64,000 nucleotides of DNA from Clostridia bacterium (lineage in GTDB: Bacteria > Bacillota > Clostridia > UMGS1883): assembly GCA_017505525.1 (NCBI GenBank), contig JAFVPB010000039.1, positions 62,001 through 126,000 of the forward strand, written 5' to 3'. How positions within the stretch are numbered: the stretch's first letter is position 1; each line of letters begins with the position of its first letter. Position numbers and translations under genes: made by a program. A model generated the notes under the pieces. That model made no database searches and had not been told where the DNA came from. It saw only the letters and a list, made by a program, of their open reading frames with translations. This document shows, one piece after another, positions 18,944 through 38,363 of the stretch.

Positions 18944-18960
18944 TTAAATATTTGTATTGG

Positions 18961-19001
18961 AAAGACACAGGTTTTTATATTGTGAAGCCTGTGTCTTTTT
19001 G
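18961..19001 (+). terminator. Intrinsic terminator
   Basis: An 11-base stem, AAAGACACAGG with CCTGTGTCTTT, and a T run. It isolates the recombinase locus from upstream transcription. Confidence 0.85.
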
Positions 19002-19167
19002 ACTTTGTTTATAGAAAATGACATAGCACTTGCAAATCTTCTTACAAAACAAAAATGGTAGTAAATAGCAAAACGGAAAATAAAAAGAAGGAACACCAAA
19101 CCATTGACAGCTTCACAGTATATTATGAAGCAAGTGATAAAATAATATAAAAAAGGAGTTGTCAATT

Positions 19168-20007
19168 ATGAGAAAAATCACTAATGAACTTATATTGAAA
19201 TTTAAGGAGTATCTTGTGAGCGAAGAAAAGTCATCGGCTACACTTGAAAAGTATATCCGTGATATTACTGCTTTTGTAGCATGGATGTGTGGCAGGGAGT
19301 TAAATAAGGACTTGGTTCTGGAGTATAAACAAAATATAGTTGCCTCTTATGCTCCGGCAAGCGTTAATTCAATGCTGTCATCACTCAATAGCTTTTTTGC
19401 ATATAACGAATGGTATGAGCTTCGTGTAAAGGCTCTGAAAATCCAAAGACAGATTTTCGCAAATAAAGATAAGGAGCTTACGAAAGCGGAATATGAAAGC
19501 CTGTGCAGGGCTGCCAAAAGGAAAAATAACGAACAGCTATATTTGCTTATGCAGACAATATGCTCATCAGGTCTGAGAGTATCGGAGCTATCTGCTGTAA
19601 CGGTTGAAGCCGTAAGGCAGAAACGAGCTAATATAAACTGTAAAGGGAAAATGCGTATTGTTATTCTTCCTGATGACCTTTGCAGAGTTCTTATGAAGTT
19701 TATCCGAGAACAAAAAATAACAAGCGGTGCAGTATTCGTAACACGAAACGGCAAACCGCTTGATAGAAGCAATATATGGCGATTGATGAAAAGTCTGTGT
19801 GAAAGTGCCGGAGTATCAAGGGAGAAGGTATTTCCACATAATTTGAGGCATCTTTTCGCACGAACATTCTACGGAATCGAAAAAGACATCGTTAGACTTG
19901 CAGATATTTTGGGACATTCTTCGGTAAATACTACCCGTATTTACACTATGGAAAATAGTGAAGTCCACCGTCAGCTTATTCAAAAGTTAGGACTTTTATT
20001 ATGCTGA
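19168..20007 (+). CDS. Tyrosine recombinase next to an invertible promoter (likely invertase)
   Basis: 279 aa XerD-like recombinase. A SAM-like N-domain (residues 1-90) precedes a catalytic domain with GLRVSELSAVTVE (first Arg), HNLRHLFARTFYG (HxLR..), LGHSSVNTT and the nucleophile Tyr in TTRIYTM. ATG 19168 lies nine bases after AAAGGAG; an upstream TTG is in frame but too close. The gene ends 16 bases before inverted repeats that flank a promoter. This is the arrangement of phase-variation invertases, so it probably inverts that segment. It could instead be a general XerC/D-type resolvase. Confidence 0.85.
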   Translation: MRKITNELILKFKEYLVSEEKSSATLEKYIRDITAFVAWMCGRELNKDLVLEYKQNIVASYAPASVNSMLSSLNSFFAYNEWYELRVKALKIQRQIFANKDKELTKAEYESLCRAAKRKNNEQLYLLMQTICSSGLRVSELSAVTVEAVRQKRANINCKGKMRIVILPDDLCRVLMKFIREQKITSGAVFVTRNGKPLDRSNIWRLMKSLCESAGVSREKVFPHNLRHLFARTFYGIEKDIVRLADILGHSSVNTTRIYTMENSEVHRQLIQKLGLLLC

Positions 20008-20022
20008 TAAAATAAAAAAACA

Positions 20023-20042
20023 CATAATTCGCATTATGTTGT
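20023..20042 (+). repeat. Inverted repeat L of the invertible segment
   Basis: CATAATTCGCATTATGTTGT. It is an exact reverse complement of the repeat at 20282-20301 and is itself nearly palindromic around an asymmetric TCGC centre, like a tyrosine-recombinase core site. It starts 16 bases after the recombinase stop codon. Confidence 0.85.
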
Positions 20043-20281
20043 ATCAAAAGGCAAGAAATAGATGTTGATTTGGCTATTTTAGAAAAACAGACACTAAAAT
20101 CTGAAAATCGACATAGCAAAGCTGACCGATGTAATAGGCGTTTTGTAGCATCGGTCTTGTTTCCATGTGTATTTTTTATGCAGAACGGAGAAATTATAGA
20201 AAAAACCTCAAAACCATTGACAGAATGTATAGATGATGCTATAATATTATCGTCTATTGGTATGTACTTAATAGATACTTA
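20043..20281 (+). promoter_or_regulatory. Invertible segment carrying a terminator and an outward promoter
   Basis: About 240 bases between exact 20-base inverted repeats. It holds a hairpin (20124-20156, GACCGATG with CATCGGTC, then TTGTTT) that would stop readthrough from the recombinase gene. After that comes a consensus promoter pointing right. A 70-codon frame crosses the segment but has no ribosome binding site and resembles no protein, so I treat it as chance. In the present orientation the promoter reads into the regulator and surface genes (ON). Inverted, it would face the recombinase and the surface genes would be OFF. Confidence 0.75.
20217..20245 (+). promoter_or_regulatory. Consensus sigma-A promoter inside the invertible segment
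   Basis: TTGACA (20217-20222), 17 bases, TATAAT (20240-20245), all perfect matches. Transcription would start near 20252 and cross the right repeats into the gene at 20426. The leader contains a 10-base imperfect hairpin (TTGCCACTAC with GTGGCGGCAA, 20353-20398). Confidence 0.9.
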
Positions 20282-20301
20282 ACAACATAATGCGAATTAT
20301 G
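20282..20301 (-). repeat. Inverted repeat R1 of the invertible segment
   Basis: ACAACATAATGCGAATTATG, exact reverse complement of repeat L (20023-20042). Confidence 0.85.
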
Positions 20302-20315
20302 GTGTAAGTGCCGTT

Positions 20316-20335
20316 CACATAATGCGAATTATGTG
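20316..20335 (-). repeat. Inverted repeat R2, second right-hand copy
   Basis: CACATAATGCGAATTATGTG shares the core and arms with R1 in the same orientation. Recombination of L with R2 would invert about 300 bases; R1 with R2 would delete 34. Confidence 0.75.
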
Positions 20336-20425
20336 TCAAAGGCATATTTTTTTGCCACTACTTGTAGCGACCATTACAGTTAAGAATCGTGGCGGCAAGT
20401 ATATTATGAAAGAGGGCTGAAAAGT

Positions 20426-20998
20426 ATGGATAGTATAGACCTGTCCGACAAAAAGAAAGAGATTGCAAAGACCGCTTGGGAGTATATGTTAAAAACAGGC
20501 TTGTCAAATGCTTCTATCGGCGGTTTGTGCAGAGAAACTGAGTATGGCGAAAGTACCCTGTATCATTACTACAAAAATAAAGATGATATTTGGATAACCG
20601 CCGGAAAGTATGGTATATCAAAGGTTGTGGGAAAACTTTTAGACTTTACATTTAAGCATACTGATGATATACGAACCTTTTTTGATACCTTTTTGAATGA
20701 GGTGGAAAAATACAAGCTGGAATTACGGCTTGCAATTCAAATTACAACAAGCCCCATTTACGGTGAGCGTATGAGGGGCAAGGCAAGGGATTTCAGACTT
20801 TGGTACGAAAAGTACGCAAATGAACTGATAAACATTTTCGGATGTTCATATCTGCAAGCTGAAACCTTTATTTACTCAATTATTGCATTTGTAATTGATT
20901 ATGCAATATGGGACGATTGCGACAAAACACAAATGCTTCTTGATAACCTTTACGGAAGAATTATCAAACTTCTGAATAAGGACGAAACACAGATGTAA
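20426..20998 (+). CDS. TetR/AcrR-family transcriptional regulator
   Basis: 190 aa. KKEIAKTAWEYMLKTGLSNASIGGLCRETEYGESTLYHYYKNKDDI (residues about 9-54) is a TetR-type helix-turn-helix with the usual LYHYYKNKD ending. The C-terminal 130 residues are helical and would bind a ligand. It is the first gene after the invertible promoter and 50 bases before the surface-protein genes, so it probably adjusts their expression on top of the switch. Confidence 0.85.
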   Translation: MDSIDLSDKKKEIAKTAWEYMLKTGLSNASIGGLCRETEYGESTLYHYYKNKDDIWITAGKYGISKVVGKLLDFTFKHTDDIRTFFDTFLNEVEKYKLELRLAIQITTSPIYGERMRGKARDFRLWYEKYANELINIFGCSYLQAETFIYSIIAFVIDYAIWDDCDKTQMLLDNLYGRIIKLLNKDETQM

Positions 20999-21047
20999 TT
21001 TTATTTACATACAACTAAAATACAGAAAAACGGAGGCAACAAGAAAA

Positions 21048-23213
21048 ATGTACTTCAAAAAATTGAAAAAGCTGCTCTCAGGCGTATTAGTCGGAGCAAT
21101 GATGCTGACATCAATATCAGCTATGCCCGTAATGGCGGCAGATAGCTATGATGTTAAACTCATCATCAAAAATGTAACGGAAACAGACACAAACAGCGAT
21201 ACCCTTACAGGAGAAGCAAAATTCAAAATCTCCATGAGTGGAATAACAGATAAATTAACCTACGCACAGGTACTTCTTGGATTTGAGTCGGACAGTATGA
21301 CATTCAAATCTGTAGAGTATATTCACGGGAATGACAATGCACTTAATGTAAATGTTTCAAACAGAGTAATTGCAGAAGATAAAATTGTAATGCCCGGATT
21401 TGCTTGTGCTACAAGTCCTATTGAAGATAGTGACGGAATTGTTGATATGTTTATTATTACCTTTGAAGGTGGTTCGGAAGGTGATAGCATAACTCTTACA
21501 CCTGAACTTTCTGATACCTTTGCAGGTATAGCTAAAGCAAGCGGTACTCCCGGTTCTTCATACACAGCTACACTTGCAGATGATAATGAATATACTGCAA
21601 ATGCAAGCACAACTACAAACACGGGTATAACAGCAAAGATAAACATTTCAATGGATGCAGTAAAAAGTATCAGATCACTTGACGAGCAGAATCCTATAAC
21701 AGTTTCTCTCAGAAGTGACAGCGGTGTTACTACAGAAGAACTCACATTGGATACAACAGGCTCAACGCCAATCCTTTCATTTGAGGAAAAAGTAGTTAAT
21801 AAAGAATACACTCTTGAAATTAAAGCTAACGGTTATAAAACCTATAGCAAAACTGTATCAGGCAATTCTCTTAAAAATATGACAATCAGCACAGATGAAT
21901 TTATGCCCGGTGATGTAAATGCTGATGATAAAATTGACTTGCAGGATTACACCTTGTTTATGTCTGTGTATGACAACGAGCTTGATATTCACCCTTCACT
22001 CACAGACTATGACAGAAACGGAACTACAAACTATCTTGACCTTAACGCATTAAAGACATCACTTGCAAGCACAAAGGCAAATGGCAAGATAAATGATACA
22101 ACAGGAACAAAGGCATTGACAGTTAGTGCAGATGACACCTCTGTTAAGGTTGATGATACCTTTACATTAACCCTTAAAGCGGAAGATGTTTATACATACT
22201 TTGTAAACGGTACTTGGGATAACACCATAGCAACACTTGAAAGTGCTACAGTAAAAGGTACAACGGAAGATAACTATAAGGCTTTGAATGTAAGCAAAGA
22301 CGGAAAATTCAGTTTTATGAACACAGTAAATTCAGCAGACAGTAATGACAAGATTTACGAGCTTACATTTAAGGCAAAGAAGGCTGGTTCATTCTCACTT
22401 ACATTTAATGATTCCTATACAATGGATAAAGTTTCTGATGTAAACGATGCAGATGTAAATAAAATCAATGTTACAAACGCAACAGTAACCATTACTGCTA
22501 ATGAAGGTGGCTCCGGCGGTGGAACTGGTGGAGGTACTGGCGGCGGCACCGGAGGCGGTGGCGGTGGTGCTGGCGGTGGCGGCGGTTCAACACCTTCAGT
22601 AACCACACCATCAACAACTACACCTTCCACAACAACTCCGTCAACAACCACTCCTTCAAATGAAACATTTACAGATATTGAAAATTATGTTTGGGCTAAG
22701 GATTCTATCTATATGCTCAAAGACAAAGGTATTATCAGCGGTGTGAGTGCAACAGAATATGCTCCTGCAAATAATATCAAGCGTGGCGATTTTATCCTTA
22801 TCCTTACAAGAATGTTGAACCTTACAACAGAGTATTCCGAAAACTTTGCGGATGTTCCCGAAAGTGCATACTATTATGATGCTCTCGGCAAAGCAAAGGC
22901 AGCCGGAATTGCAACAGGTGATGGAATCAACTTTATGCCTGAAAATTCAATCACAAGACAGGATTTGATAACTCTTGCATACAGAGCTTTCTTAAATGCA
23001 GGATATATCACAGAAAATACAGATACAACCGCACTTGATAACTTCAATGACAGAGCAGAAATATCTGATTACGCAGTAAATGCTATGGCAAGTATGGTTA
23101 ATGCCGGAATTATTAAGGGCAGCGACAACGGCGGTGTAAACCCCAAAGGAAATGCAACAAGAGCCGAGGTAGCTGTAATGTGTGCAAGACTTGTTGAGCT
23201 TATGAATAAATAA
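21048..23213 (+). CDS. Scaffoldin-like surface protein: cohesin-like, dockerin, SLH
   Basis: 721 aa. A signal peptide (about residues 1-30) is followed by a cohesin-like beta domain (31-200). A dockerin-like pair of calcium loops lies at about 286-345 (GDVNADDKIDLQDYTLFM and DYDRNGTTNYLDLNALK). A second cohesin-like domain follows (about 350-480), then a Gly-rich linker and TTPS repeats (484-540), and three SLH repeats to the end. SLH anchors it to the wall, and cohesin/dockerin modules build multi-protein complexes. AACGGAGG precedes the ATG. It is probably part of the unit controlled by the invertible promoter. Confidence 0.8.
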   Translation: MYFKKLKKLLSGVLVGAMMLTSISAMPVMAADSYDVKLIIKNVTETDTNSDTLTGEAKFKISMSGITDKLTYAQVLLGFESDSMTFKSVEYIHGNDNALNVNVSNRVIAEDKIVMPGFACATSPIEDSDGIVDMFIITFEGGSEGDSITLTPELSDTFAGIAKASGTPGSSYTATLADDNEYTANASTTTNTGITAKINISMDAVKSIRSLDEQNPITVSLRSDSGVTTEELTLDTTGSTPILSFEEKVVNKEYTLEIKANGYKTYSKTVSGNSLKNMTISTDEFMPGDVNADDKIDLQDYTLFMSVYDNELDIHPSLTDYDRNGTTNYLDLNALKTSLASTKANGKINDTTGTKALTVSADDTSVKVDDTFTLTLKAEDVYTYFVNGTWDNTIATLESATVKGTTEDNYKALNVSKDGKFSFMNTVNSADSNDKIYELTFKAKKAGSFSLTFNDSYTMDKVSDVNDADVNKINVTNATVTITANEGGSGGGTGGGTGGGTGGGGGGAGGGGGSTPSVTTPSTTTPSTTTPSTTTPSNETFTDIENYVWAKDSIYMLKDKGIISGVSATEYAPANNIKRGDFILILTRMLNLTTEYSENFADVPESAYYYDALGKAKAAGIATGDGINFMPENSITRQDLITLAYRAFLNAGYITENTDTTALDNFNDRAEISDYAVNAMASMVNAGIIKGSDNGGVNPKGNATRAEVAVMCARLVELMNK

Positions 23214-23230
23214 ACATTGTAATATAAGTC

Positions 23231-23291
23231 GGTTATTCGATGTATTCCTGACACCTTCGATTCTTGCACAATGGGAATACATCGGATAGCC
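23231..23291 (+). terminator. Long hairpin between surface genes (possible partial terminator)
   Basis: An 18-base stem with two G-U pairs (23231-23248 with 23274-23291) and a 25-base loop. A T run follows eight bases later (23300-23305). It could reduce transcription into the next, very long gene or stabilise the upstream mRNA. Confidence 0.6.
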
Positions 23292-23322
23292 TTAAACTGT
23301 TTTTTAGGAGAGTGATTTTAAG

Positions 23323-26300
23323 TTGAAAAAACGAATATTATTGCTATTTCTCTCCGCTGTGATGATGCTTTCCAATCTTGCGACACCAATATATGCGGCT
23401 GCCAATGACGATAAGCGAGAGGTATATTTACATGCACAAGATAACCCCGACCTTACCGCACCATCCGGCGGTGAGGCATTTCTTGGACAGGATGTAAATG
23501 TATATTTGGCGGTGGACAAACCTAACAAGGGAGAAACAAAACTAAACGGATATTTCGTAAAGCTGTATTATGACAGCGAATATCTGAAAGCTAAAAATGT
23601 TAATTATGATAGTGGTAAACATCCATTAAACTATAAACTTCCAGCGCCGGACGAAAGTTGGGGATATGTTGCACCAAATGGTACGGCTGCTGCAAAGAAC
23701 AATTTTAGCGGTCCCGACATTTCGGGAACGGAAACCGTTGACGGAATAAAATATAATGTTATTTCGGCTTTGGTTTTCTTTAGTGGATTTGAACTTGAAA
23801 ATAATGATGCTTTAAGCTGGTATAACATTTTAGGCGTTACCTTTGAAGCCCTACAGGAAGGCACAACCGAAGTCTTTATTGACACAATGGACTTTGACGA
23901 GGCAGAAAACGGCTTTGAACTTTTTGCAAAGCATGAAGCCGGAGGAAAGAAATATTTTACAACAAACATACGAAACGGCGGACATTATCTCTTGAATATA
24001 AAAAACATATCAAGACCTGCTGCTCCGCAGATTGATAAGCCTTCGGGTTCATATAATCCCGAAGACCTTGTGGCAAACACAATTACCATAACAGCAGAAA
24101 CAGGCTGTGATATATGGTACACAACCGAGCCTGATGCACCTGATTATCTCGATTTAGACGAATATGGTAATGATAAAAACGGCTATATCCGTGTTTCAGG
24201 CAATAAATTTGTATATCCCAAGCCAATAAGCGGAACAACAACATTAAAAGCTATTGCAAGCCGTTCATCAAATGACGGAGAAACAATGCGGTACAGCTAT
24301 GTAAAAAAGAACACATATTACATCGTACCTCATTCTCCTTCTTTGTTTGTTGTAGAGAAAAAAGATGGTGGAGTCGTATCTTCTGCTAAAAGAATCAATC
24401 CGCCATATTACAACTCAGTAACCCCGTTTGAAATATGTATTGATGACGGCAACACTTTTGATGGTTTACTTGATGGATTTAATGAAATATACTATACCTT
24501 CTCTCTTGCAGATGTTAGCGAGGTTTTAAATTACGATACAACAACGCAAAAAAACGATAAAACAGAATGGGTGCAGCTTCGCCCCGATGAATTGAAATTT
24601 CCTATACCTATTACAGAAAATTGTTATATCAGAATTGTAACAAAAAGAATTGGTGAATTAAGCGGTGTTACACAGTATGAGTTGTGCATCAGCCCTGCTC
24701 CGGCTCTTGTAACGGAAGATTATATGCTGCCCGAAAATGCAAAATCATCTGTTGATGTCAAACTGAAATCAGAAACAGACGGAGCAGAAATCTTTTACAC
24801 CCTTGACGGTAGCGATCCGAGAATACAGGGTGGCAGCCGTACAAAGTATAAAGATGGTGATGTAATTCCTGTTCAGAAATCTCTCATACTCACAACCGTT
24901 GCATATTATAACGGTGTGTATTCAGAGCTTACACCCTATACCTACGATTTTGGTATTCCCGGTTCGTTGTGGGTAGATGCTTCTCATCAGTCAGGCGATT
25001 ATGACGGTGAGGTTGAGGTTCATCTTATAAGTGCAAATATAGATGATGAAATCTATTACACTACAGACGGAAACGAACCTACAGACCAAAGCATTAAATA
25101 TGACAGAACAAAACCAATAAAAGTAACCGAGGATATGGTTATTAAGGCTGTTGCAAAAGACAAAGAGGGCAACTACAGCGAAGTAAAAACATTTTTCTAT
25201 TATATAAAGCCTAAAGCCCCTGAGTTCAGACCGCAGACAACGCAGTTTTCCGAAAATGGCGAAGTGCATATCCATTCCGAATATGACGAAAGCGGTTATG
25301 AGCTTTGGATAACAACAGACGGAACTGATCCCCGTGAACAAACACAAAATACTATTAAAATAGTAGGTAACTTCTATGCAGTAAAGGATATTGACGATTA
25401 TACGGTTATTAAAGCAGTAGTAGCAAAAACAAGCGGAGCAGATGTTGTTTTCTCCGACCTTGTTATGCACACATATGATGTAGTAACTTCAAGACCGTCA
25501 AAGCCTACACCTACACTCGTTCCCGGAACATATACAATAACACCCGAAAGCTCCGGCTTCTCAACAAAGTTTGTATATCCCGGCGAAAATATCAAGATTT
25601 ATTACACAATTTCAACATCGGAGGAAAGCCCGTACCCACCAAATGATCCCGTTGGTTCTAAACTGTGGGAGGGTGAGTCGATTCCTGTTAAGGGCGAAAC
25701 AATTATAAAAGCCGTTGCAGAGGATATTTTCGGCAGAAGGTCGCAGATAGGCTTGTACTACTATAAGATAGTACCCGAAGCTCCGACTGCTCCTACAAGT
25801 GCAAATTATAACGAAATGGACTTCATTCCTGTAACTGCTGTAAAGGGTAGTGAAATCACATATACCATAAACGGTGTAACTCACACTATCCCTGCAAGCA
25901 ATATGGCAGACAGAACAATCTTCTATATTGATAGCAAAACAGGCAAGGCATATACAGGAACAGATAGACAGACACAAATTAGCAGCGGTGATGACCAAAG
26001 CATTACCGAACCCATAACTCTTGAACTTTCATGCGAAAAGGACGGAGTTCCAAGCAGTACATCAACCTATCACTATAATATTGGTGAAAATCCTGCACCC
26101 CCGTTTGTATCTGCAAATCCCGGCGGTGAATATCCGCAGAAATCACAGACTCAAAGCGGAGCGTATGTAAAGGTCGAACTTGACACTCTTGAAAAAGATG
26201 CTGAAATCTGGTATTGCACCGATTCAGAAAATATTTCTGATGAAACTGCATGGCAAAAATATGATAAGGATTCAGGTATTGAAATTTTTGACGATACCAC

Positions 26301-28053
26301 ACTTCACGCAAGAGTGAAAAAAGACGGTAAATTCAGTAATATGATTACTGAGGTTTACACCTTTAAGCCAATGCCGCCCGTTGTAACCCCTGATTCGGGT
26401 ACATATAGCGGAGAACAGGAAGTAACCATAAAATTTGATGATAATGCAAAATCCCCTGACGGTAGCAGTTATATTATTAAATATAGTATAAACGGCGAAG
26501 TTCAGGATGATGAAGTTTATCCCGGACAGGAGCGTAAAATCCCCGTAACCGATACAACCACAGTAAAGGCGTGGGTAGTGGAAGTTGATGACAGGACAGG
26601 AAAAACTCTTGACGAAAGCGAACCCGTTATCAACTACTATTTCATAGACACCACAACAGCCGGACAGGGTACAGTTAAGTTTGGTGAACCCTTTGATACA
26701 AGACACCGTTTTGCAACTTGGGAATTGGATAAAATTTCGGGTATCAAATTAAAAGGTGAACCAAGTAACTATCAGATATATTATGAATATCGCTATCAGG
26801 ATGCAGACGGTACTTGGTATCCGTCAGCAACCGACTATACCGATGAAACGATTTATAACAATGTTCCTATAGGTATATCTCCGGCAATGAAGCAGATTGT
26901 AGTTCATGCTTGGCTGATGGACGGAGGCAACCCCGTACCCGGCAGCGAAATTGAAAAAACATTTACATTTGTTGATTTGGGTATTCCGCAGCCTACACCC
27001 GATGAAGGCTCATATACAAGCAATCAGACGGTTAAGCTGATAAACGAATATAGCAAAACGGAATATCCTAACAGATTTATTTATTACACTACCAATACCT
27101 CTGCCGACTATACAAAGGGAGAGTTCACAAAGTACACCGATGAAATTGACGAAAAAGGTATTACCATTTCATCAAATACAACTTTAAGGACTGTTTATTA
27201 TGATGCTTGCGGTGAAGATAGCTGTATCGGATGCGTAAGCGGAAACTATGAACAATGTCAATACCCTGTATGGGGCGATGTTGGAGAATTTAAGTATTAT
27301 ATCACCAAATCCACAGGTGGTGGTTCATCCGGCGGTGGCGGTGGTGGAGGTTCTACCACAACAAAGAAGAAATACACCATAGACCACTTCGGCAACGAAC
27401 ATCCGCACCATACAAATTACTTATACGGCTATCCTGACGGAACAGTACAGGGTGACGGGAATATAACAAGAGAAGAAACAGCAGCTATCCTCTACAGAGT
27501 ATATCATATAGACTATGTAGAGCCTCATCCGGCACAGGGCGATCAGTACCCTGATGTAACAGCCGATATGTGGTCTGCCGCTTCTATTGAATATCTTTCC
27601 GATGTTGGCTTGATTATGGGCTATCCTGATGGAACATATCAGCCCCGAAATCAGATAACAAGAGCAGAGTTTGTTGCTATGATTACCCGTTGGCTCAAAC
27701 TCGACACAAATGTTAAGTTGACAAGCAAAGATACAAAATTCTCCGATTTGGAAGAAAGCCACTGGGCATATAACGAAATTTATGCTTTGTCAAAGATAGG
27801 TTACATCAAAGGCTATGAGGACGGAACTTTTAAGCCCCAACAGCCTATAACCCGTGCCGAAGCAGTAACAATTATAAACAGAATACTCGGCAGAAAGCCC
27901 GACAGAAGCTATCTCCAAAAGTCTGATTTTAACCCATATACCGACCTTAAAGGCGATGAATGGTATTACGAGCAGATTTTGGAGGCAACAATCAATCATT
28001 ATTATGATTTGAAAGATACCGAGAATCCTTGGCATCTTCAAATAAAAGACTAA
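23323..28053 (+). CDS. Giant SLH surface protein with chitobiase-C/Fn3-like repeats
   Basis: 1576 aa. A signal peptide (about residues 1-26) precedes a cohesin-like N-terminal domain (30-225). Then come about ten repeats of the CHB_HEX_C type, each with an IxYTxDGSxP-like strand such as IFYTLDGSDP, IYYTTDGNEP and LWITTDGTDP. After a Gly/Ser linker there are three SLH repeats (about 1360-1525; GYPDGTVQGD, GYPDGTYQPR, GYEDGTFKPQ). Such repeats usually act as spacers or carbohydrate-adhesion modules in wall-bound proteins. The start is TTG 23323 with AGGAG upstream. It is an adhesin or second scaffold in the phase-variable unit. Confidence 0.85.
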   Translation: MKKRILLLFLSAVMMLSNLATPIYAAANDDKREVYLHAQDNPDLTAPSGGEAFLGQDVNVYLAVDKPNKGETKLNGYFVKLYYDSEYLKAKNVNYDSGKHPLNYKLPAPDESWGYVAPNGTAAAKNNFSGPDISGTETVDGIKYNVISALVFFSGFELENNDALSWYNILGVTFEALQEGTTEVFIDTMDFDEAENGFELFAKHEAGGKKYFTTNIRNGGHYLLNIKNISRPAAPQIDKPSGSYNPEDLVANTITITAETGCDIWYTTEPDAPDYLDLDEYGNDKNGYIRVSGNKFVYPKPISGTTTLKAIASRSSNDGETMRYSYVKKNTYYIVPHSPSLFVVEKKDGGVVSSAKRINPPYYNSVTPFEICIDDGNTFDGLLDGFNEIYYTFSLADVSEVLNYDTTTQKNDKTEWVQLRPDELKFPIPITENCYIRIVTKRIGELSGVTQYELCISPAPALVTEDYMLPENAKSSVDVKLKSETDGAEIFYTLDGSDPRIQGGSRTKYKDGDVIPVQKSLILTTVAYYNGVYSELTPYTYDFGIPGSLWVDASHQSGDYDGEVEVHLISANIDDEIYYTTDGNEPTDQSIKYDRTKPIKVTEDMVIKAVAKDKEGNYSEVKTFFYYIKPKAPEFRPQTTQFSENGEVHIHSEYDESGYELWITTDGTDPREQTQNTIKIVGNFYAVKDIDDYTVIKAVVAKTSGADVVFSDLVMHTYDVVTSRPSKPTPTLVPGTYTITPESSGFSTKFVYPGENIKIYYTISTSEESPYPPNDPVGSKLWEGESIPVKGETIIKAVAEDIFGRRSQIGLYYYKIVPEAPTAPTSANYNEMDFIPVTAVKGSEITYTINGVTHTIPASNMADRTIFYIDSKTGKAYTGTDRQTQISSGDDQSITEPITLELSCEKDGVPSSTSTYHYNIGENPAPPFVSANPGGEYPQKSQTQSGAYVKVELDTLEKDAEIWYCTDSENISDETAWQKYDKDSGIEIFDDTTLHARVKKDGKFSNMITEVYTFKPMPPVVTPDSGTYSGEQEVTIKFDDNAKSPDGSSYIIKYSINGEVQDDEVYPGQERKIPVTDTTTVKAWVVEVDDRTGKTLDESEPVINYYFIDTTTAGQGTVKFGEPFDTRHRFATWELDKISGIKLKGEPSNYQIYYEYRYQDADGTWYPSATDYTDETIYNNVPIGISPAMKQIVVHAWLMDGGNPVPGSEIEKTFTFVDLGIPQPTPDEGSYTSNQTVKLINEYSKTEYPNRFIYYTTNTSADYTKGEFTKYTDEIDEKGITISSNTTLRTVYYDACGEDSCIGCVSGNYEQCQYPVWGDVGEFKYYITKSTGGGSSGGGGGGGSTTTKKKYTIDHFGNEHPHHTNYLYGYPDGTVQGDGNITREETAAILYRVYHIDYVEPHPAQGDQYPDVTADMWSAASIEYLSDVGLIMGYPDGTYQPRNQITRAEFVAMITRWLKLDTNVKLTSKDTKFSDLEESHWAYNEIYALSKIGYIKGYEDGTFKPQQPITRAEAVTIINRILGRKPDRSYLQKSDFNPYTDLKGDEWYYEQILEATINHYYDLKDTENPWHLQIKD

Positions 28054-28198
28054 AATATAGGCGATTGCGTTCTAATTAAAGAAAGGGTGATTCCGATGGT
28101 TTGGACATAGAAATATATAAATCATCAAAAACAACAGATAAGTTGTAAAAATCAAGATAAGAAAAAAACAAAAATTTTAAGAAAAGAGGTAATTATTC

Positions 28199-29203
28199 AT
28201 GAAAAAATTCTTATCAACAATTTTAGCAGTAGTTATGGTTCTCAGTTCTATGGCTATGGTGGTTTCTGCAAATGATGTGGATTACGCAGAGGGTTACTAC
28301 TATGTAAACGGTGTTCAGTACACAGATTTTATGGCAGCAGTTTCAGCAGCTAACGGCGGCACTGTTATTGTTTCAGGCGAATGTGCATTTAGCTCAAGAC
28401 TTGCTGTAAACTCAAGCGTTACATTACAGGGTGTAAATGATGCAACAATCGTTCCTTCAGCATCTTATGGTTCAACAGATAGCGATACTAACTGGAAAGG
28501 TCTTTTGAACATTCAGGCAAGTGATGTAACAATTAATGATATTACCTTTGATGGTAGCCTTTATGGAATAGGTAAAGGAACTTCTACAGATTTTGTGGTT
28601 TTAAGAATTAATGAAGGTACAGATATCGTCCTTGATAATGTTACTGTTCTTGGTTCAGAAAGAACTCTGATCAGCATTGGAACAAGTTCAACATCAGCTG
28701 AAGTTGAAGTGGGTGAGGGCGGCTTGTACTGTGAAGCACCTATGAAAAAATTAAGCCTTGTTGCTTCGTATGCAGATATTTTAGTTAAAAATGGTAGATT
28801 AGATATGGACTATGGTATTGTTAATGGCTTTATTGCTGAAGATAAAGATACAAACGCTGGTACTATTGATGTTGGCGCTGCTGGTCATTATACATTTGAA
28901 TATACAACAGGATTCAAAAAAATTGATATAGCTACAACACCGAAGCACATCGCAAATTCATATCTTGACAACAATTTAAATGTCCTTGAAGAATCTGCAT
29001 ATATTAGTCTTATTGGTAAAAATGACGCTGTTACTCAGCAGATGATGCAGTATGTTTACAATAATAGAAATACTCTGACAGAAGAAATGACAGATCTCAA
29101 TACAATGCTTGATGACATGATTGCAGGAACAATTTTTGGTGCTTACAAAACAGAACTTCAGAACTATAAAGCAATTTTAGCTGGAACAGTTACAGTTCAG
29201 TAA
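28199..29203 (+). CDS. Exported beta-helix (pectin-lyase-like fold) protein
   Basis: 334 aa with a signal peptide (residues 1-24, VVSA-ND). GGTVIVSGECAFSSRLAVN, VTINDITFDGSLYGI and VLDNVTVLGSERTLISIG have the stacked short-strand rhythm of right-handed beta-helices. No lyase catalytic residues can be identified. The C-terminus is a polar helix. It belongs to the surface operon and lies 14 bases upstream of a dockerin protein. The 145 bases before it contain no other gene. Confidence 0.7.
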   Translation: MKKFLSTILAVVMVLSSMAMVVSANDVDYAEGYYYVNGVQYTDFMAAVSAANGGTVIVSGECAFSSRLAVNSSVTLQGVNDATIVPSASYGSTDSDTNWKGLLNIQASDVTINDITFDGSLYGIGKGTSTDFVVLRINEGTDIVLDNVTVLGSERTLISIGTSSTSAEVEVGEGGLYCEAPMKKLSLVASYADILVKNGRLDMDYGIVNGFIAEDKDTNAGTIDVGAAGHYTFEYTTGFKKIDIATTPKHIANSYLDNNLNVLEESAYISLIGKNDAVTQQMMQYVYNNRNTLTEEMTDLNTMLDDMIAGTIFGAYKTELQNYKAILAGTVTVQ

Positions 29204-29216
29204 TTGGAGGGTAATT

Positions 29217-31439
29217 ATGAAAAAAATCGTTTCACTGATGCTGTCGATTTTGCTTGTGTGTTCTACATTCGCATCTATAACTGTATTTGCTGATGAAATT
29301 ATTGTAGATTCAAGTAATTCGGTAGTTCAACTATTTAAGACAAATATCGAAAACCAAGAAGGCTTGGTTTTCGATGAAAATTACTTCTTTATTGGTAAAA
29401 TTATTGGTGACTATACAAATGGCGCTGTTGGTGTTAAAATTTCTACAAGTTCAGAAAAAGAATTGACATTAGGTGTTGGTCTTGCTTATGAAAATATGGG
29501 TGCTATGGGCTTGGTTGATAGAAAAGAAAATGAGTACCATAAGGTTGATATAAGCTTGAATGAGCCACATTTTGAACCTCTTTCATATTGGGATCACGGT
29601 ACAACGAATGGTTATTATGTGTGTGCAACACTTCAAAATCCTGATGTTCTCGAAAAGAATGAAACAGTGACGATTGAAATTGTTAAATCAGTAAAAGATA
29701 ACAGCAGTGAATCAGTTTCATATTCTGCTGGAGAAGTATTAAATACATTCTCTAAAGAATTTGAAGGCCCTGTAATATTTACTGACACCGACTATGCTAA
29801 TATGGCCTCAGTTCTCACTGATTTGAAGTTTGAAAGAACCCCTGATTATTCTAAGGTTGTTGCTGCACTTTCTTCATTAAAAAATGATTCTGATAGAACA
29901 TCGGAAGATGATTTGAATGCTTTACTTTACGGTGAAAACAACTATATTGAAGTTATTTCAAAGGTAATTACAGACAACAATAATAAGATAACCATGGCAA
30001 ATGCAGAATCTGTAGCAATCCCCTATGCTGTTTTGGCTGATATTCCTACTGACGACGGCATTGCCTATGAAGTCGATGTAACATCCGGAATAGGAGTTGA
30101 GAAGAAGGATCTTCCAACACTTATCGAGGCAGATGGCGTGAATGACGCCGTTGTTGCAAACGAACAGGTTGCTTACGAAATTAAAATAATGGCAAATAAC
30201 ACTCCTATTTCTTCTCCCGTTATAACTCAAAAAGTTATTGTTGATCTTCCGGATACTTGGGATTTGAGCAACGGTGTTAAGTATTTGCACGGTGCCAATT
30301 GGAAAACGGCAGACATTGTAAAGGGCAAGGCTGTTATTTATACTGATTCCTTCAGTAACTTTGTATTTGCTGGTAAATCTGCAACTGTGGCAAGCGAAGA
30401 AACTGGTCGTACTGAAAGTGTAAAGTATGAACTCATTCAGGATGAAGTTGATAAGAGCAAATTCCAGATAGTTGCAACACCTACTGACGGAAAGCAGATT
30501 ATAAAATTCGCTACTACTCCTGTAAAATTATTGTTCAGCACTACAAATGTTGCGGAAGAAGAAGCGATGAAGAGTATGGCCTTGGAGCTTGTTGAGGTTG
30601 ATGGCATTGATTTGACAAACGAAAATTATCTTCCTGCCGGAATAGCAAGTCTCGGAGGTGTAGAATTTGTGGCAACTGCTATTGCCGGAGAGAATGGTGA
30701 ACTTAAAACAATTCCTGTAGGTCAGTCACTTGTTCTTGCTGAACTTATTGTTAAAGGTCATGGTACATTTGCAACAGTATCATCTGCAAGTGAAAATGAA
30801 AAGCCTTTCTGGATGGAGTCTTTAGATAATAACATAGCAGTAAAAGCTACTGTTGAACAGAATCAGCTTATTCCTATGATGAATATTCCTGAAAAGAAAT
30901 ATACACTTACAATTAATATGGATTTTGCAAATAGAATTGAATCTACGGATGCTGATTATATCGGTATGACTATTGAAATTAACGGTTCAATCTCAGGTGA
31001 GCAGGAAACAATCGTGATTGGTAGTGAAGATATGCCTGTTAACATAGCTCCAGATGGTGTAGAAGCTACATCTAAGGCTATTGAACTTGCTGCGAATGAA
31101 ACATATTCATTTGTAGTTAAGGGTGCTGGTTTTAGAACATTCAGAGGTTCTGTATATCTTGATGCAAACAAAAAAATAAATCTTTGGAACAATGCTATTG
31201 ATGACGGAACAAAAGTGAATGTTGTTGATGATGATAAAACTACAGCTAAAACTGTGACATTCCTTGTTGGTGACATTTACGAAGATGGAATTGTTGACAT
31301 TTATGACCTGTCTGCTGTAACTGCTTACTATTCAGGTGATAAGACTGTTGATAAAAAGTATGTAACTTACGATCTTAACAGAGATGGTCTGATTAACACA
31401 GCAGACATCGCTTATGTTCAGGTATCTTACGGTAACTAA
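29217..31439 (+). CDS. Exported protein with C-terminal type I dockerin
   Basis: 740 aa. The signal peptide is residues 1-26. A long N-terminal and central part (30-670) shows no recognised enzyme domain. The C-terminal ~60 residues are a dockerin: GDIYEDGIVDIYDLSAVTAYY and DLNRDGLINTADIAYVQVSYG, two calcium-binding loops each followed by a helix. It could dock onto cohesin-like domains of the SLH proteins encoded just upstream. AATTGGAGG precedes the ATG. A terminator follows. Confidence 0.8.
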   Translation: MKKIVSLMLSILLVCSTFASITVFADEIIVDSSNSVVQLFKTNIENQEGLVFDENYFFIGKIIGDYTNGAVGVKISTSSEKELTLGVGLAYENMGAMGLVDRKENEYHKVDISLNEPHFEPLSYWDHGTTNGYYVCATLQNPDVLEKNETVTIEIVKSVKDNSSESVSYSAGEVLNTFSKEFEGPVIFTDTDYANMASVLTDLKFERTPDYSKVVAALSSLKNDSDRTSEDDLNALLYGENNYIEVISKVITDNNNKITMANAESVAIPYAVLADIPTDDGIAYEVDVTSGIGVEKKDLPTLIEADGVNDAVVANEQVAYEIKIMANNTPISSPVITQKVIVDLPDTWDLSNGVKYLHGANWKTADIVKGKAVIYTDSFSNFVFAGKSATVASEETGRTESVKYELIQDEVDKSKFQIVATPTDGKQIIKFATTPVKLLFSTTNVAEEEAMKSMALELVEVDGIDLTNENYLPAGIASLGGVEFVATAIAGENGELKTIPVGQSLVLAELIVKGHGTFATVSSASENEKPFWMESLDNNIAVKATVEQNQLIPMMNIPEKKYTLTINMDFANRIESTDADYIGMTIEINGSISGEQETIVIGSEDMPVNIAPDGVEATSKAIELAANETYSFVVKGAGFRTFRGSVYLDANKKINLWNNAIDDGTKVNVVDDDKTTAKTVTFLVGDIYEDGIVDIYDLSAVTAYYSGDKTVDKKYVTYDLNRDGLINTADIAYVQVSYGN

Positions 31440-31481
31440 TATTTAAAAACAGCTTGATTGCATCAGGCTAAACACATTCGG

Positions 31482-31514
31482 CGGAGGTACGGCTTGCCGT
31501 ATCTCCGTTGTTTT
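31482..31514 (+). terminator. Intrinsic terminator ending the surface operon
   Basis: CGGAGGTACGG pairs with CCGTATCTCCG (one G-U) around a 4-base loop, followed by TTGTTTTT. Confidence 0.9.
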
Positions 31515-32843: not shown

Positions 32844-33503
32844 ATGAGAAAAATACACAAAGATAAAGAACTTAATTTGGCGGTTGAAGAAAAGAAAGAC
32901 ATGCTCGATTTTCTTATTATGGAATTTAAGGAAATTTCAGAAAAATTAGAAACTACTGATAAAAAGGTTCAGTTTTGTACGCAACTATACATAACACTTA
33001 TTACTGCTATTGTTGCGGCTGCTATTGGAGCAGAGGCTGTGTTTGAAATACCAAATTCTAATTTCTGCTTTGGTATTTTGTTTTTTGTATTATATTTAAT
33101 GGGACAATTCGTATTATTTTATATGATTTCCGGACAAAGAATACATTCTGATTATTTATGTCGGTTAAACAGTATAAGATATTTGATTTTGAAAAAGATG
33201 AATAAATCGGAGAATTTTATTGAAGCATATGGATATACAAAGTGTAGTGTTTCCAAAAAATCAGGGATGAATGATTATATGATATATTTAAGTGTCGCAC
33301 TAATAGGATTCTTTTATGCTTTAGGGGCGTACATTATATGGGATTTATCGCAAGATTGTTGGGTAAAGTCTGGCGTAATATACGGTGCTGTTTTCTTGGT
33401 TTTTATAAATGGAAAACAATTAGCAAATAGAAAAAAGGTGATGGCTGAAAACGCTGAAAAATATGAAAAAAATAAAAAAATTTTATGTAAGGAAATCTTG
33501 TAA
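32844..33503 (+). CDS. Four-helix membrane protein, possibly SLATT-like
   Basis: 219 aa. A Lys/Glu-rich helix (residues 1-45) is followed by two helices (about 50-95) and, after a cytoplasmic segment, two more (about 150-195). The last part is again charged (LANRKKVMAENAEKYEKNKK). Two paired helices with coiled-coil flanks resemble SLATT-type effector membrane proteins known from defence systems, but I cannot confirm homology. It ends two bases before the radical SAM gene, whose ribosome binding site lies within it. Confidence 0.5.
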   Translation: MRKIHKDKELNLAVEEKKDMLDFLIMEFKEISEKLETTDKKVQFCTQLYITLITAIVAAAIGAEAVFEIPNSNFCFGILFFVLYLMGQFVLFYMISGQRIHSDYLCRLNSIRYLILKKMNKSENFIEAYGYTKCSVSKKSGMNDYMIYLSVALIGFFYALGAYIIWDLSQDCWVKSGVIYGAVFLVFINGKQLANRKKVMAENAEKYEKNKKILCKEIL

Positions 33504-33504
33504 A

Positions 33505-34614
33505 ATGCAAGGGGAACACCAATTTTCAAATAATAAATTGTTTTTCTATGCCGATAGACTGAAAACATCTTTATCAGGCAGGGTAGCTAACCCCATAGTG
33601 TATGAACTTTCTTTAAGTGGATTTTGTAATTGTTCTTGTGAATATTGCTGTTGTCAAAATTACCATAGTAATAATATGTTGTTGCAACAAGATATTGATA
33701 TTATTGTAACTCAGTTAAAATCCGTTGATGCTAAAGCTGTTACGCTTACGGGTGGTGGAGAACCATTGACTAACCCTCTATTTTCGTATTGCGTTAAGAA
33801 ACTAAATGAAAATGACTTACGAGTTGGTGTTATAACAAATGGAATTCTGTTAAATGATGAAGCCATAAAGAACATTGTTAAATGTGCAAGTTTTGTGAGA
33901 ATAAGTCTTGATACTGTTGATAAAGATGCCTATAAAAGCATAAGAGGTATTGATATTGAACTTGATAAGATGTTTAATAATCTAAAGGCACTTGCAAAAT
34001 ATAAGAAAAAAGTAAAATCAGAAATTTTAATTGGCTGTCAGATTGTATATTTTAATCAGTCTATATCTGATGTGAAGAAAACAGTTAATTTTGTAAAGAA
34101 GTCTGGAATTGATTTTATACAAATAAGACCTGTTGACAACATTCCGCAAGAAGATTTAAAAAGAAATTATGATTTTTATATCAAGAACAGAGCCGGATTA
34201 AAAAAACTTGTCAACAAATATTCTGATAATAATTTCAGCGTAATTTTAAACGATAATAAGTTTGAAGAATACTATAACAGTTCAGTAACAAAAGAGTATA
34301 GCAAATGTTTGGGTGCTAATTTTACTGCTTCAATCGGACATGATATGAATTTATATTTTTGTTGTTCTCATATTGGGAATTTGACTTTTTCTGTTGGTAA
34401 TTTAAGAGAGAGGTCTTTAATAGAGTTGCTTGCTGATTCTAAACGAAAAAGTTTAATTGAAAATCCGTGTTTTTCATATTGTCAGACACAATGCAGAAAT
34501 CATAATATAAATAAAATATTGAATGATTTGTCAAAAATGGATGCGGAGCAACTTGATATACTGATTAACGAAAAGAATAGAGAACCTCAACCAATACATT
34601 GCGATTTTTTATAG
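33505..34614 (+). CDS. Radical SAM/SPASM-type enzyme
   Basis: 369 aa. The radical SAM motif CNCSCEYC gives Cys41, Cys45 and Cys48 for the 4Fe-4S cluster that cleaves S-adenosylmethionine. VTLTGGGEPLTNP follows (the GGE motif). The C-terminal third has further cysteines (SKCLGANFT, LYFCCSHIGN, CFSYCQTQC), as in SPASM domains that hold auxiliary clusters, often in peptide-modifying enzymes. No precursor peptide gene is obvious nearby. ATG 33505 is preferred over 33463 because AAGGAAA precedes it. It pairs closely with the membrane protein upstream. Confidence 0.85.
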   Translation: MQGEHQFSNNKLFFYADRLKTSLSGRVANPIVYELSLSGFCNCSCEYCCCQNYHSNNMLLQQDIDIIVTQLKSVDAKAVTLTGGGEPLTNPLFSYCVKKLNENDLRVGVITNGILLNDEAIKNIVKCASFVRISLDTVDKDAYKSIRGIDIELDKMFNNLKALAKYKKKVKSEILIGCQIVYFNQSISDVKKTVNFVKKSGIDFIQIRPVDNIPQEDLKRNYDFYIKNRAGLKKLVNKYSDNNFSVILNDNKFEEYYNSSVTKEYSKCLGANFTASIGHDMNLYFCCSHIGNLTFSVGNLRERSLIELLADSKRKSLIENPCFSYCQTQCRNHNINKILNDLSKMDAEQLDILINEKNREPQPIHCDFL

Positions 34615-34635
34615 GGTTATATATAGATCTGACGA

Positions 34636-34676
34636 ACAGCGGTATTCACTTTGAATACTGCTGTCTTTTCTCTTTT
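34636..34676 (+). terminator. Intrinsic terminator after the radical SAM gene
   Basis: ACAGCGGTATTC pairs with GAATACTGCTGT (one G-U) around a 5-base loop, followed by a T/C-rich tail. Confidence 0.85.
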
Positions 34677-34730
34677 ATAATGAATTTTTTTGCCGAAAGT
34701 GGAAAAAATATTTAATGTTTTCAAAATCAC

Positions 34731-34759
34731 TTGAAAAAATATTAAATATGTGATATAAT
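34731..34759 (+). promoter_or_regulatory. Sigma-A promoter of the DUF4143 ATPase gene
   Basis: TTGAAA (34731-34736), 17 bases, TATAAT (34754-34759). The leader to the ATG is about 43 bases. Confidence 0.85.
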
Positions 34760-34808
34760 GAATTTGCAAAAATGCCGTTGGTGGCAAAAAAATTAAGTGG
34801 AGGATATT

Positions 34809-36110
34809 ATGGAGATTAAAAGAGATATATACCTCAATAGGCTTATTGTTCGTAAACACAATAGCTTTGTAAAGGTTATAACCGGAATAAGAAGATGTGG
34901 AAAGTCTTATCTTTTAAATACAATTTTCTATAATCATTTAGTTGCAGAAGGTGTAGATAAGGAGCATATTATCAAGTTTGCTTTTGATTCAGCAGATGAC
35001 CTCAGACTTATCGGAGAAGATTTAACTGAAATTGATGCAGATAACAGAAAAGTTGATCCGGCAAAATTTATGGACTATATCAGCAGTAAAATTTCAGATG
35101 AAAAAATGTATTATCTTCTTCTTGATGAAGTTCAGAAGCTCGGCAGCTTTGAGTCCGTACTGAACGGATATTTAAGAAAAAACAACATGGATATATATGT
35201 TACGGGCAGTAACTCCAAATTTTTATCAAGTGATATTTTGACCGAATTTGAAGGACGGGGTGACGAGGTTCATGTTTTACCTCTGTCTTTTTCGGAATTT
35301 TATAGTGCCTATGACGGAACAAAAGAAGAAGCCTTTGATGATTATATGGTATATGGTGGACTTCCGGCTGTTGCATTGATGCAGACTGATGAACAGAAAG
35401 CAAATTACCTTATAACGCAGATTGAAAATGTTTATTTAAAAGATATTGTAAAAAGATATAACCTGAACAGCGATGAAAATATCAGCGAACTTCTTGATAT
35501 TATTGCATCAGGTATATCTTCTTTGTGCAATCCCAAAAAGCTGGCGGCAACATTCAGAAGCGAAAAGAAGAAACAGTCAACAATTAGTGATGTAACCGTT
35601 GCAAAGTATATTTCATATTATATTGATTCTTTTCTTGTGAGCATTGCCAAGAGATATAATGTAAAGGGCAAAAAGTATATAGAAACGCCATATAAGATTT
35701 ATTTTGAAGATTTGGGCTTGCGTAATGCAAGACTTAATTTCAGACAGATTGAGCCTACACACATTATGGAGAACATTATATATAATGAGCTTCGCTACAG
35801 GGGCTACCGTGTAGATGTGGGCGTTGTAGAATCCCGTGAAAAGGACAAAGACGGTAAGGAAATCAGAAAACAGTTAGAGATAGATTTTGTTGCAAATCAG
35901 GGCAGTAAAAGATATTATATTCAGTCGGCCTATGATATTCCCGATAATGCAAAGTGGGAGCAGGAAACCCGTTCCTTTGATAAGACCAACGATTCATTTA
36001 AGAAAATCGTTATTGTGGAACGCAGTATGAAACCACGCAGGGATGATAAGGGCTATGTTACTATGGGCGTGAAAGAATTTCTGCTCACAGATAACAGTCT
36101 GGAGCTTTAA
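34809..36110 (+). CDS. AAA ATPase with DUF4143 domain
   Basis: 433 aa. Walker A GIRRCGKS (residues 26-33), Walker B YLLLDEVQ (about 101-108) and TGSNSKFLSS are the hallmarks of the AAA_14/DUF4143 ATPase family. The C-terminal DUF4143 part contains LEIDFVA and a conserved restriction-enzyme-like core (DVGVVES...LEIDFVANQ). These proteins are common in gut anaerobes in many copies and their role is unsettled. It has its own promoter, and palindrome copy 8 follows 19 bases after the stop. Confidence 0.85.
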   Translation: MEIKRDIYLNRLIVRKHNSFVKVITGIRRCGKSYLLNTIFYNHLVAEGVDKEHIIKFAFDSADDLRLIGEDLTEIDADNRKVDPAKFMDYISSKISDEKMYYLLLDEVQKLGSFESVLNGYLRKNNMDIYVTGSNSKFLSSDILTEFEGRGDEVHVLPLSFSEFYSAYDGTKEEAFDDYMVYGGLPAVALMQTDEQKANYLITQIENVYLKDIVKRYNLNSDENISELLDIIASGISSLCNPKKLAATFRSEKKKQSTISDVTVAKYISYYIDSFLVSIAKRYNVKGKKYIETPYKIYFEDLGLRNARLNFRQIEPTHIMENIIYNELRYRGYRVDVGVVESREKDKDGKEIRKQLEIDFVANQGSKRYYIQSAYDIPDNAKWEQETRSFDKTNDSFKKIVIVERSMKPRRDDKGYVTMGVKEFLLTDNSLEL

Positions 36111-36128
36111 ATTTTAAATATCAAAATA

Positions 36129-36153
36129 ACCTTATTCCAATTTGGAACAAGGT
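36129..36153. repeat. 25-bp intergenic palindrome, copy 8
   Basis: Arms ACCTTATTCC and GGAACAAGGT, between the ATPase gene and the agr operon. Confidence 0.9.
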
Positions 36154-36201
36154 CGGTAGTGATGGCAGATGTAGGTTTGGCAACAAGGAAAGGATACAAA
36201 T

Positions 36202-36927
36202 ATGAAGGATAAAATAGAAATATACATTTGTGATGATAATCAAAATTTCATTGAAGAAATTTCACAAAGGACTCAAGCATTGGTTGGCAAGAACAGAACC
36301 CTGATTGTGAAAACTTTCAATGATGGTAGAGAACTTATTGCACAATGGAATGAAAAATTTGCTGATGTAGTATTTTTAGATATTGATATGCCGTCTATTA
36401 CTGGCTTTGAAGTAGCAGAGGAATTGCAAAAATCAAAGCGTGATGCAATAATTATCTTTATAACAAGTCATGAAGATAAGGTGTATCAGTCGTGGGACTT
36501 TCAACCGTTTTGGTTTGTCAGAAAGAGTCATCTTAACGATTTGGACAAGGTGTTTCCTCGGCTTTTGTTAAAAATTGATTCCGAAAACGAAAAGGAAAAA
36601 CATATATTTAATCTGGTAGCTGAAACAAAGGTTGTAGAATTAGATATAAATTCCGTAAAATACATACAGGCATTAAAACATTATGTACTTATAAAATACA
36701 TAAATGGAGAACAAATAAAGGTTAGGTGTAAAATATCTGATGCAGAGCAACAGTTGCAACAGCTTTACTTTATCAGGATACAAACAAGCGCTCTTGTAAA
36801 TATCAGATTTATTGCAAAGATTACGAGCAGGGATGTCATTCTTACTGATGGTGAGAGTTTGCATGTAAATAGAGAAAGACTTGAAAGTGTCAGAGATGAG
36901 TTTCAGAAATTTATAAGGAGTAGATAA
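36202..36927 (+). CDS. agrA: LytTR-family response regulator (AgrA-like)
   Basis: 241 aa. A receiver domain (residues 1-125) contains the acidic pair DD at 11-12, the phospho-acceptor Asp60 in VVFLDIDMPS and FITSHEDKVY. A LytTR DNA-binding domain follows (about 135-235; IKYIQALKHYVLIKY, FIRIQTSALVNIRFI). It would respond to the kinase encoded next and activate agrBD from the direct repeat at 38273. It starts about 48 bases after palindrome copy 8 with AAGGAAAGG upstream, and ends two bases before the kinase gene. Confidence 0.9.
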   Translation: MKDKIEIYICDDNQNFIEEISQRTQALVGKNRTLIVKTFNDGRELIAQWNEKFADVVFLDIDMPSITGFEVAEELQKSKRDAIIIFITSHEDKVYQSWDFQPFWFVRKSHLNDLDKVFPRLLLKIDSENEKEKHIFNLVAETKVVELDINSVKYIQALKHYVLIKYINGEQIKVRCKISDAEQQLQQLYFIRIQTSALVNIRFIAKITSRDVILTDGESLHVNRERLESVRDEFQKFIRSR

Positions 36928-36929
36928 TT

Positions 36930-38228: not shown

Positions 38229-38241
38229 TATTTATGAAGAT

Positions 38242-38268
38242 AAGTCGGTAAATTACCGGCTTATTTTT
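38242..38268 (+). terminator. Intrinsic terminator after agrC
   Basis: AAGTCGGTAA and TTACCGGCTT (one G-U) form a tight stem, followed by ATTTTTG. Confidence 0.8.
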
Positions 38269-38272
38269 GTGT

Positions 38273-38338
38273 CTATTGTGCCGATATTTGCGGCTATAGT
38301 GCCAACCCCATTGAAGATAGGAATATTTATGATAAAAT
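38273..38338 (+). promoter_or_regulatory. Probable AgrA/LytTR direct repeat and agrBD promoter
   Basis: CTATTGTGCC (38273) and CTATAGTGCC (38294) are direct repeats exactly 21 bases apart, the spacing of LytTR-family operators. Eight bases later comes a weak -35 (TTGAAG, 38311), a 16-base spacer and TAAAAT (38333). This fits autoinduction of agrB and agrD by the regulator encoded upstream. Confidence 0.7.
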
Positions 38339-38363
38339 AGGATTACAAGGAAGGAAAATACCA

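Follow-up and report, generated by a model that had tools for sequence, protein, structure and literature searches.

A putative invertible promoter switch between a tyrosine recombinase gene and a TetR-led surface-protein operon in a Clostridia bacterium

Invertible promoters driven by adjacent tyrosine recombinases are an established form of gene switch. The DNA considered here, termed the window, is a stretch of 64,000 nucleotides from a Clostridia bacterium of the UMGS1883 lineage (GenBank assembly GCA_017505525.1, contig JAFVPB010000039.1, positions 62,001 to 126,000). It contains a locus that is very probably a self-contained phase-variation cassette, in which a recombinase would invert a promoter placed ahead of a TetR-family gene and four genes for exported surface proteins. 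Judged from its sequence, the locus is a real inversion switch that was assembled in the ON state. A preliminary description of the same DNA had proposed an invertible promoter, and this interpretation is strongly supported by paired site cores that co-vary, by the presence of both promoter orientations in homologous loci, and by exported genes that lie co-directionally downstream. Because one terminator precedes the recombinase gene and another follows the last gene of the operon (Table 1), the interval 19003-31510 looks like a self-contained cassette.

The switch is bounded by two overlapping pairs of exact 20-nt inverted repeats, 20023-20042 with 20282-20301, recovered exactly as first described, and 20020-20039 with 20317-20336. 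Their common core defines three 18-bp sites of the form ACATAAT-NNNN-ATTATGT, denoted A, B, and C. Sites A and C are perfect, and the last base of site B deviates from the motif, a single outer mismatch. The 16-mer core CATAATKCGMATTATG is found at these three places only in the 2.4 Mb genome, with no control matches. The distance from the recombinase to the repeat, previously given as 16 bases, is 15 bases when counted from the stop codon. The segment between A and B, described earlier as about 240 bases with a hairpin and a fully consensus sigma-A promoter, is 245 bp and holds both. Perfect TTGACA-N17-TATAAT sequences occur twice in the window, including the one at 20217-20245, where 0.05 are expected. 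The hairpin has a folding energy of -17 kcal/mol and is kept with paired changes in close relatives.

The strongest evidence comes from comparing the locus with its relatives. A scan of 84,980 species genomes found 210 recombinase relatives, of which the best 80 were retained, and whole-genome searches supplied more. The comparison covers 86 distinct recombinase loci, each with at least 420 bp of downstream sequence, and counts as a site any match scoring at least 12 of 14. At least two sites are present in 80 of the 86 loci, and the pairs lie directly after the recombinase as inverted repeats at a spacing of 218-385 bp. Outside the module, 18 such sites are seen in 1.12 Mb of background. The four central bases take 42 distinct forms among the loci, none of them palindromic, and are reverse-complementary between the paired sites in 78 of 80 loci (permutation of the right-hand cores gives a mean of 3.0 and a maximum of 10). 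The window locus shows the asymmetry noted earlier, TCGC at site A against GCGA at site B. A free core that is forced to agree within each locus is a requirement of strand exchange by a tyrosine recombinase. A literature search for the site motif returned no match concerning such a switch.

The enclosed promoter points both ways among these loci. Called by promoter score within the segment, a measure that is weaker in distant relatives, it faces the downstream genes (ON) in 15 loci including the window, faces the recombinase (OFF) in 70, and is ambiguous in 2; the call for locus L137 is taken from an earlier pairing because an extra site misled the script. The ON loci are scattered across the recombinase tree, requiring 12 parsimony changes before the L137 correction. 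Eleven relatives from the closest clade have segments that were aligned with that of the window, and every one of them lies in the reverse orientation. A search of the genus for a near-identical copy of the locus flipped the other way found no close DNA match, and in this comparison both orientations occur only among homologous loci of different species.

Linkage to exported genes downstream is conserved as well. In 81 of 82 loci the switch is followed by a co-directional gene, and signal-like N-termini are carried by 104/194 downstream open reading frames (ORFs) versus 38/289 upstream, an enrichment seen in the close group (34/56 versus 12/63) and in the distant group (70/138 versus 26/226). 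Pfam domains encoded downstream in relatives include SLH, cohesin, dockerin, BspA-type LRR, Listeria-Bacteroides repeats, and collagen repeats; non-surface cargo occurs too, namely SPFH/Band 7 proteins with zinc ribbons and a helicase. Cohesin domains are found in the cargo of two relatives, L015, where an SLH-cohesin protein is followed by a dockerin protein, and L008. A relative on a Pusillibacter isolate plasmid (L159) has an SLH protein after the recombinase and no site pair under the strict motif. Cargo of the cohesin, dockerin, and SLH type, at first thought unusual for such a switch, is thus recurrent.

In the proposed mechanism, the recombinase would act on site A and one of its inverted partners, B or C, and turn around a segment of ~245 bp or ~280 bp. 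In the ON state, as assembled, the sigma-A promoter would read into the TetR gene and the four genes for exported surface proteins. After inversion it would read towards the end of the recombinase gene, and the surface operon would be left without a promoter. The asymmetric four-base core would set polarity, so that only inversion would be productive. In most relatives the OFF promoter would meet a leftward terminator, which lies beside the left site in 60 of 78 loci (2 on the opposite, control strand and 22 in shuffled sequence) and likely stops antisense transcription of the recombinase gene. In the close clade the hairpin of this terminator is the site plus additional G-C pairs, with T's after it; in the distant clade it is a separate G+C-rich hairpin. 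The site A hairpin of the window, with its outer A-run, also makes a weak leftward terminator of -4 to -5 kcal/mol. Rightward terminators after the right site are rarer (16 of 81 loci), and the window has one, built around site C. The TetR protein, being switched together with the surface genes, would probably add a second regulatory layer.

Table 1. Features of the switch and its operon in the window (aa, amino acids)
Feature	Position	Strand	Basis
Terminator-like hairpin closing the preceding transcription unit	18957..19002	+	terminator scan
Tyrosine recombinase, Xer-like, 279 aa, presumed invertase	19168..20007	+	domain matches, XerA/XerD alignment, relatives
Site A, ACATAAT-TCGC-ATTATGT, left end of switch	20022..20039	+	repeat and motif search
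Putative invertible segment, 245 bp between A and B	20040..20284	.	sites
Hairpin GACCGATG...CATCGGTC, T-rich tail 20172-20177	20124..20156	+	folding, alignment
Predicted sigma-A promoter TTGACA-N17-TATAAT, extended -10 (TG), towards TetR (ON)	20217..20245	+	promoter scan
Site B, inverted relative to A	20285..20302	-	repeat and motif search
Candidate intrinsic terminator in ON leader: site C within GTGCC/GGCAT, then T7	20308..20353	+	folding
Site C, direct repeat of B, 32 bp further on	20317..20334	-	repeat and motif search
TetR-family regulator, 190 aa, first gene of operon	20426..20998	+	near-threshold Pfam match, homologues
Exported 721-aa protein: borderline dockerin-like segment, Gly-rich linker, three SLH repeats	21048..23213	+	domain search
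Near-perfect 19-bp hairpin between two SLH genes	23231..23291	+	folding
Exported 1576-aa protein: CHB_HEX_C/Fn3-associated repeats and SLH	23323..28053	+	domain search
Exported 334-aa protein, family unknown; signal-like N-terminus by inspection	28199..29203	+	sequence inspection
Exported 740-aa protein, type I dockerin at C-terminus	29217..31439	+	domain search
Strong intrinsic terminator at operon end	31479..31510	+	terminator scan

The recombinase itself appears intact. Its ORF is complete, with a Phage_integrase domain (1.7e-26) and a SAM-like domain at the N-terminus, and it aligns with the XerA and XerD structures, where inspection by eye finds the R...K...HxxR...H...Y residues retained. 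Its similarity to the E. coli invertases FimB and FimE is only remote (39.5 bits to the tyrosine-type DNA invertase model PRK09870, far under the cut-off). A related protein with a named invertase function is PsrA, the tyrosine-type DNA invertase of streptococci, at only 29% identity. A single-sequence structure prediction had a mean predicted local distance difference test (pLDDT) score of 44 and was not used. In many close relatives ATTGACA stands 62-74 bp 5' of the recombinase start (19102-19110 in the window) and resembles the switch promoter; in the window, AAACCATTGACAG is present both there and in the switch promoter, possibly as a shared control sequence.

Further copies of the recombinase exist in the same genome, where a whole-genome search found three additional strong ones at 62-65% identity. 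The first belongs to a second complete switch (L133, G000 C61:74052-74320; core CGAC, ON, TetR first), and another to a third (L134, G000 C15:2596-2843; core CAAC, OFF). The fourth copy of the genome, on C57, lacks recognisable sites; solitary sites occur at C32:93989 and C61:73294. Paralogues inspected within one genome have no core in common, the pairs being too few for a test. Six recombinase relatives lie on viral contigs; several of these contigs stop at the recombinase stop codon, presumably at provirus boundaries, and are uninformative.

Site C, the third repeat copy, had been taken to offer either an alternative inversion or a 34-base deletion. The inversion is plausible. The deletion is rejected as unlikely, because tyrosine recombinases require a longer loop. 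Tandem sites 32-35 bp apart are found on the right side in the window, L138, and L146 and on the left side in L142, L145, and L151, and among these loci either promoter direction occurs with either tandem side. Inversion between A and C would carry the B-C spacer, and hence the extra site, to the left side, and would yield just such left-hand and right-hand layouts. Of the four arrangements built in silico, three place a hairpin of ~-14.5 kcal/mol immediately ahead of the T7 run; the exception is the ON form whose extra site is on the left. These arrangements hint at a four-state switch with OFF, low ON, and high ON levels, a speculative and doubtful extension of the model. L142 fits it poorly: this locus is ON and has a left-hand extra site, yet a hairpin remains farther along its leader.

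Other explanations of the locus have to be weighed. Genes for RepA_N, T2SSE, ParA-like, and integrase proteins lie upstream of the switch, with no element ends defined, and the switch is plausibly cargo of a mobile element. Given this neighbourhood and the Xer-like character of the recombinase, the sites might instead be att-like or resolution sites of such an element, with the enzyme serving integration or dimer resolution. Integration sites, however, would be expected on either side of an element, and resolution requires repeats in direct orientation, whereas the sites here form close inverted pairs directly after the recombinase, enclose a promoter that occurs in both orientations, and are followed by a co-directional gene with a single exception; this explanation is barely tenable. 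It is also quite unlikely that the switch is a fossil, invertible in ancestors and locked in this strain. The outer mismatch in site B and the single orientation in the assembly would suit a locked switch, but the recombinase ORF is intact with its catalytic residues, sites A and C are perfect, A and B are identical over 20 nt, and another genome still carries a recombinase that is nearly identical (99% over 196 residues). The hairpin within the segment and the candidate terminator after site C, predicted in three of the four arrangements, raise the question of whether the segment acts mainly through RNA, as a terminator or attenuator. A precedent is C. difficile cwpV, whose promoter is not part of the inverted DNA and whose OFF transcript has been proposed to fold into a terminator (PMC2784873). 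A perfect promoter inside the segment, and promoter-like sequence kept there in relatives, speak instead for promoter direction, and a mainly RNA-based action is unlikely.

Several points weigh against the invertible-promoter model. The locus is seen in one assembly, one strain, and one orientation (ON), and the calls for its relatives depend on a promoter score that loses strength with distance. The candidate terminator in the ON leader could dampen expression. The published inverton group with which the switch is compared below was likened to it by its hosts, its recombinase, and its segment length. In the model's favour, though only suggestively, the contig breaks off no more than 400 bp past the recombinase in 12 of 80 loci and no more than 400 bp ahead of it in 2, as counted by eye from a listing of contigs of at least 3 kb; the downstream excess fits assemblies broken at mixed-orientation junctions.

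The switched operon is led by the putative TetR regulator named in the preliminary description. Its Pfam match, at 23.8, falls just below the cut-off of 24, but homologues hold the same position in related loci. A TetR homologue is the first gene in four ON loci (the window, L133, L142, and L149, with L142 judged by a TetR start identical to that in L133) and in three OFF loci (L138, L139, and L145). Within the close clade, 4 of 7 TetR-led loci are ON and 2 of ~20 others are, and these small numbers raise the idea that TetR might bias or report orientation. In L138, L139, L145, and L149, TetR is followed by a membrane-like protein of 84-95 aa and, where the contig extends far enough, by a giant secreted protein whose length ranges from at least 1105 aa to 1880 aa; the arrangement thus forms a recurrent cassette.

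Of the four surface proteins, earlier described as SLH, cohesin-like, and dockerin proteins, two carry SLH and dockerins stand as one clear (the 740-aa protein) and one borderline (the 721-aa protein); a cohesin was confirmed in none of the domains tested. The operon proteins have no Pfam cohesin up to E=10, a PDB sequence search was negative, and no profile match to the cohesins of related loci was found. The whole genome holds one Pfam cohesin, outside the operon, and one Pfam dockerin, that of the 740-aa protein. A cellulosome-type scaffoldin cluster is not supported, since a dockerin partner is present and a cohesin scaffold is not detected, and the label scaffoldin is dropped until a structure says otherwise. 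A single-sequence structure prediction of the first surface protein (mean pLDDT 37) was not used. The hairpin at 23231-23291 has an energy of -27 kcal/mol and a T6 run about ten bases downstream, and it may be an internal attenuator or processing site. An Rfam search returned nothing relevant.

Elsewhere in the window, three consecutive large serine recombinase genes of the CcrB/XisF-like type follow a DinG-like helicase gene at 48854-53696, likely a separate mobile element. The interval 33463-38942 encodes a radical SAM enzyme and, after it, an AgrC-like histidine kinase, and the window encodes an AgrB family protein as well; these genes may serve peptide signalling or the making of a modified peptide.

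Closely similar modules, with the promoter either way, exist in dozens of related gut bacteria. One recombinase family and the site grammar ACATAAT-N4-ATTATGT, with its variable core, are thereby tied to phase-variable surface genes in many gut Clostridia, the majority uncultured. This grammar allows switches to be found from sequence alone, their ON or OFF state to be read from assemblies, and recombining site partners to be predicted, so that surface variation in rumen and gut Clostridia becomes directly testable.

Among known systems, E. coli fim resembles the window locus in having neighbouring tyrosine recombinases that flip a promoter-bearing segment controlling a surface structure, as also described in PMC2784873, and differs in its sites. 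The cwpV/RecV system of C. difficile shares a short invertible segment (195 bp, 21-bp repeats) 5' of a cell-wall protein gene, a site-specific recombinase, and terminators with a proposed role (PMC2784873). Unlike the window, where the promoter is inside the segment and the recombinase adjacent, cwpV has its promoter outside the inverted DNA and recV encoded elsewhere. The nearest counterpart appears in a study (PMC11892184) in which the Clostridia-dominated inverton group 139 is most strongly linked to tyrosine-recombinase group 35 and flipping in culture is proven by reads. As described there for the hCom2 community, this pairing resembles the window in its Clostridia hosts, in a tyrosine recombinase adjoining the inverton, and in segment length (~205-227 bp inner in two named examples), with inversion shown by reads, and it is probably of the same family as the window switch. 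The text consulted describes no variable four-base core, outward terminators, third site, or TetR-led surface operons. What the window and its relatives add is the detail of recurrent leftward terminators, TetR-led operons, and, more speculatively, a third site that possibly grades the ON state.

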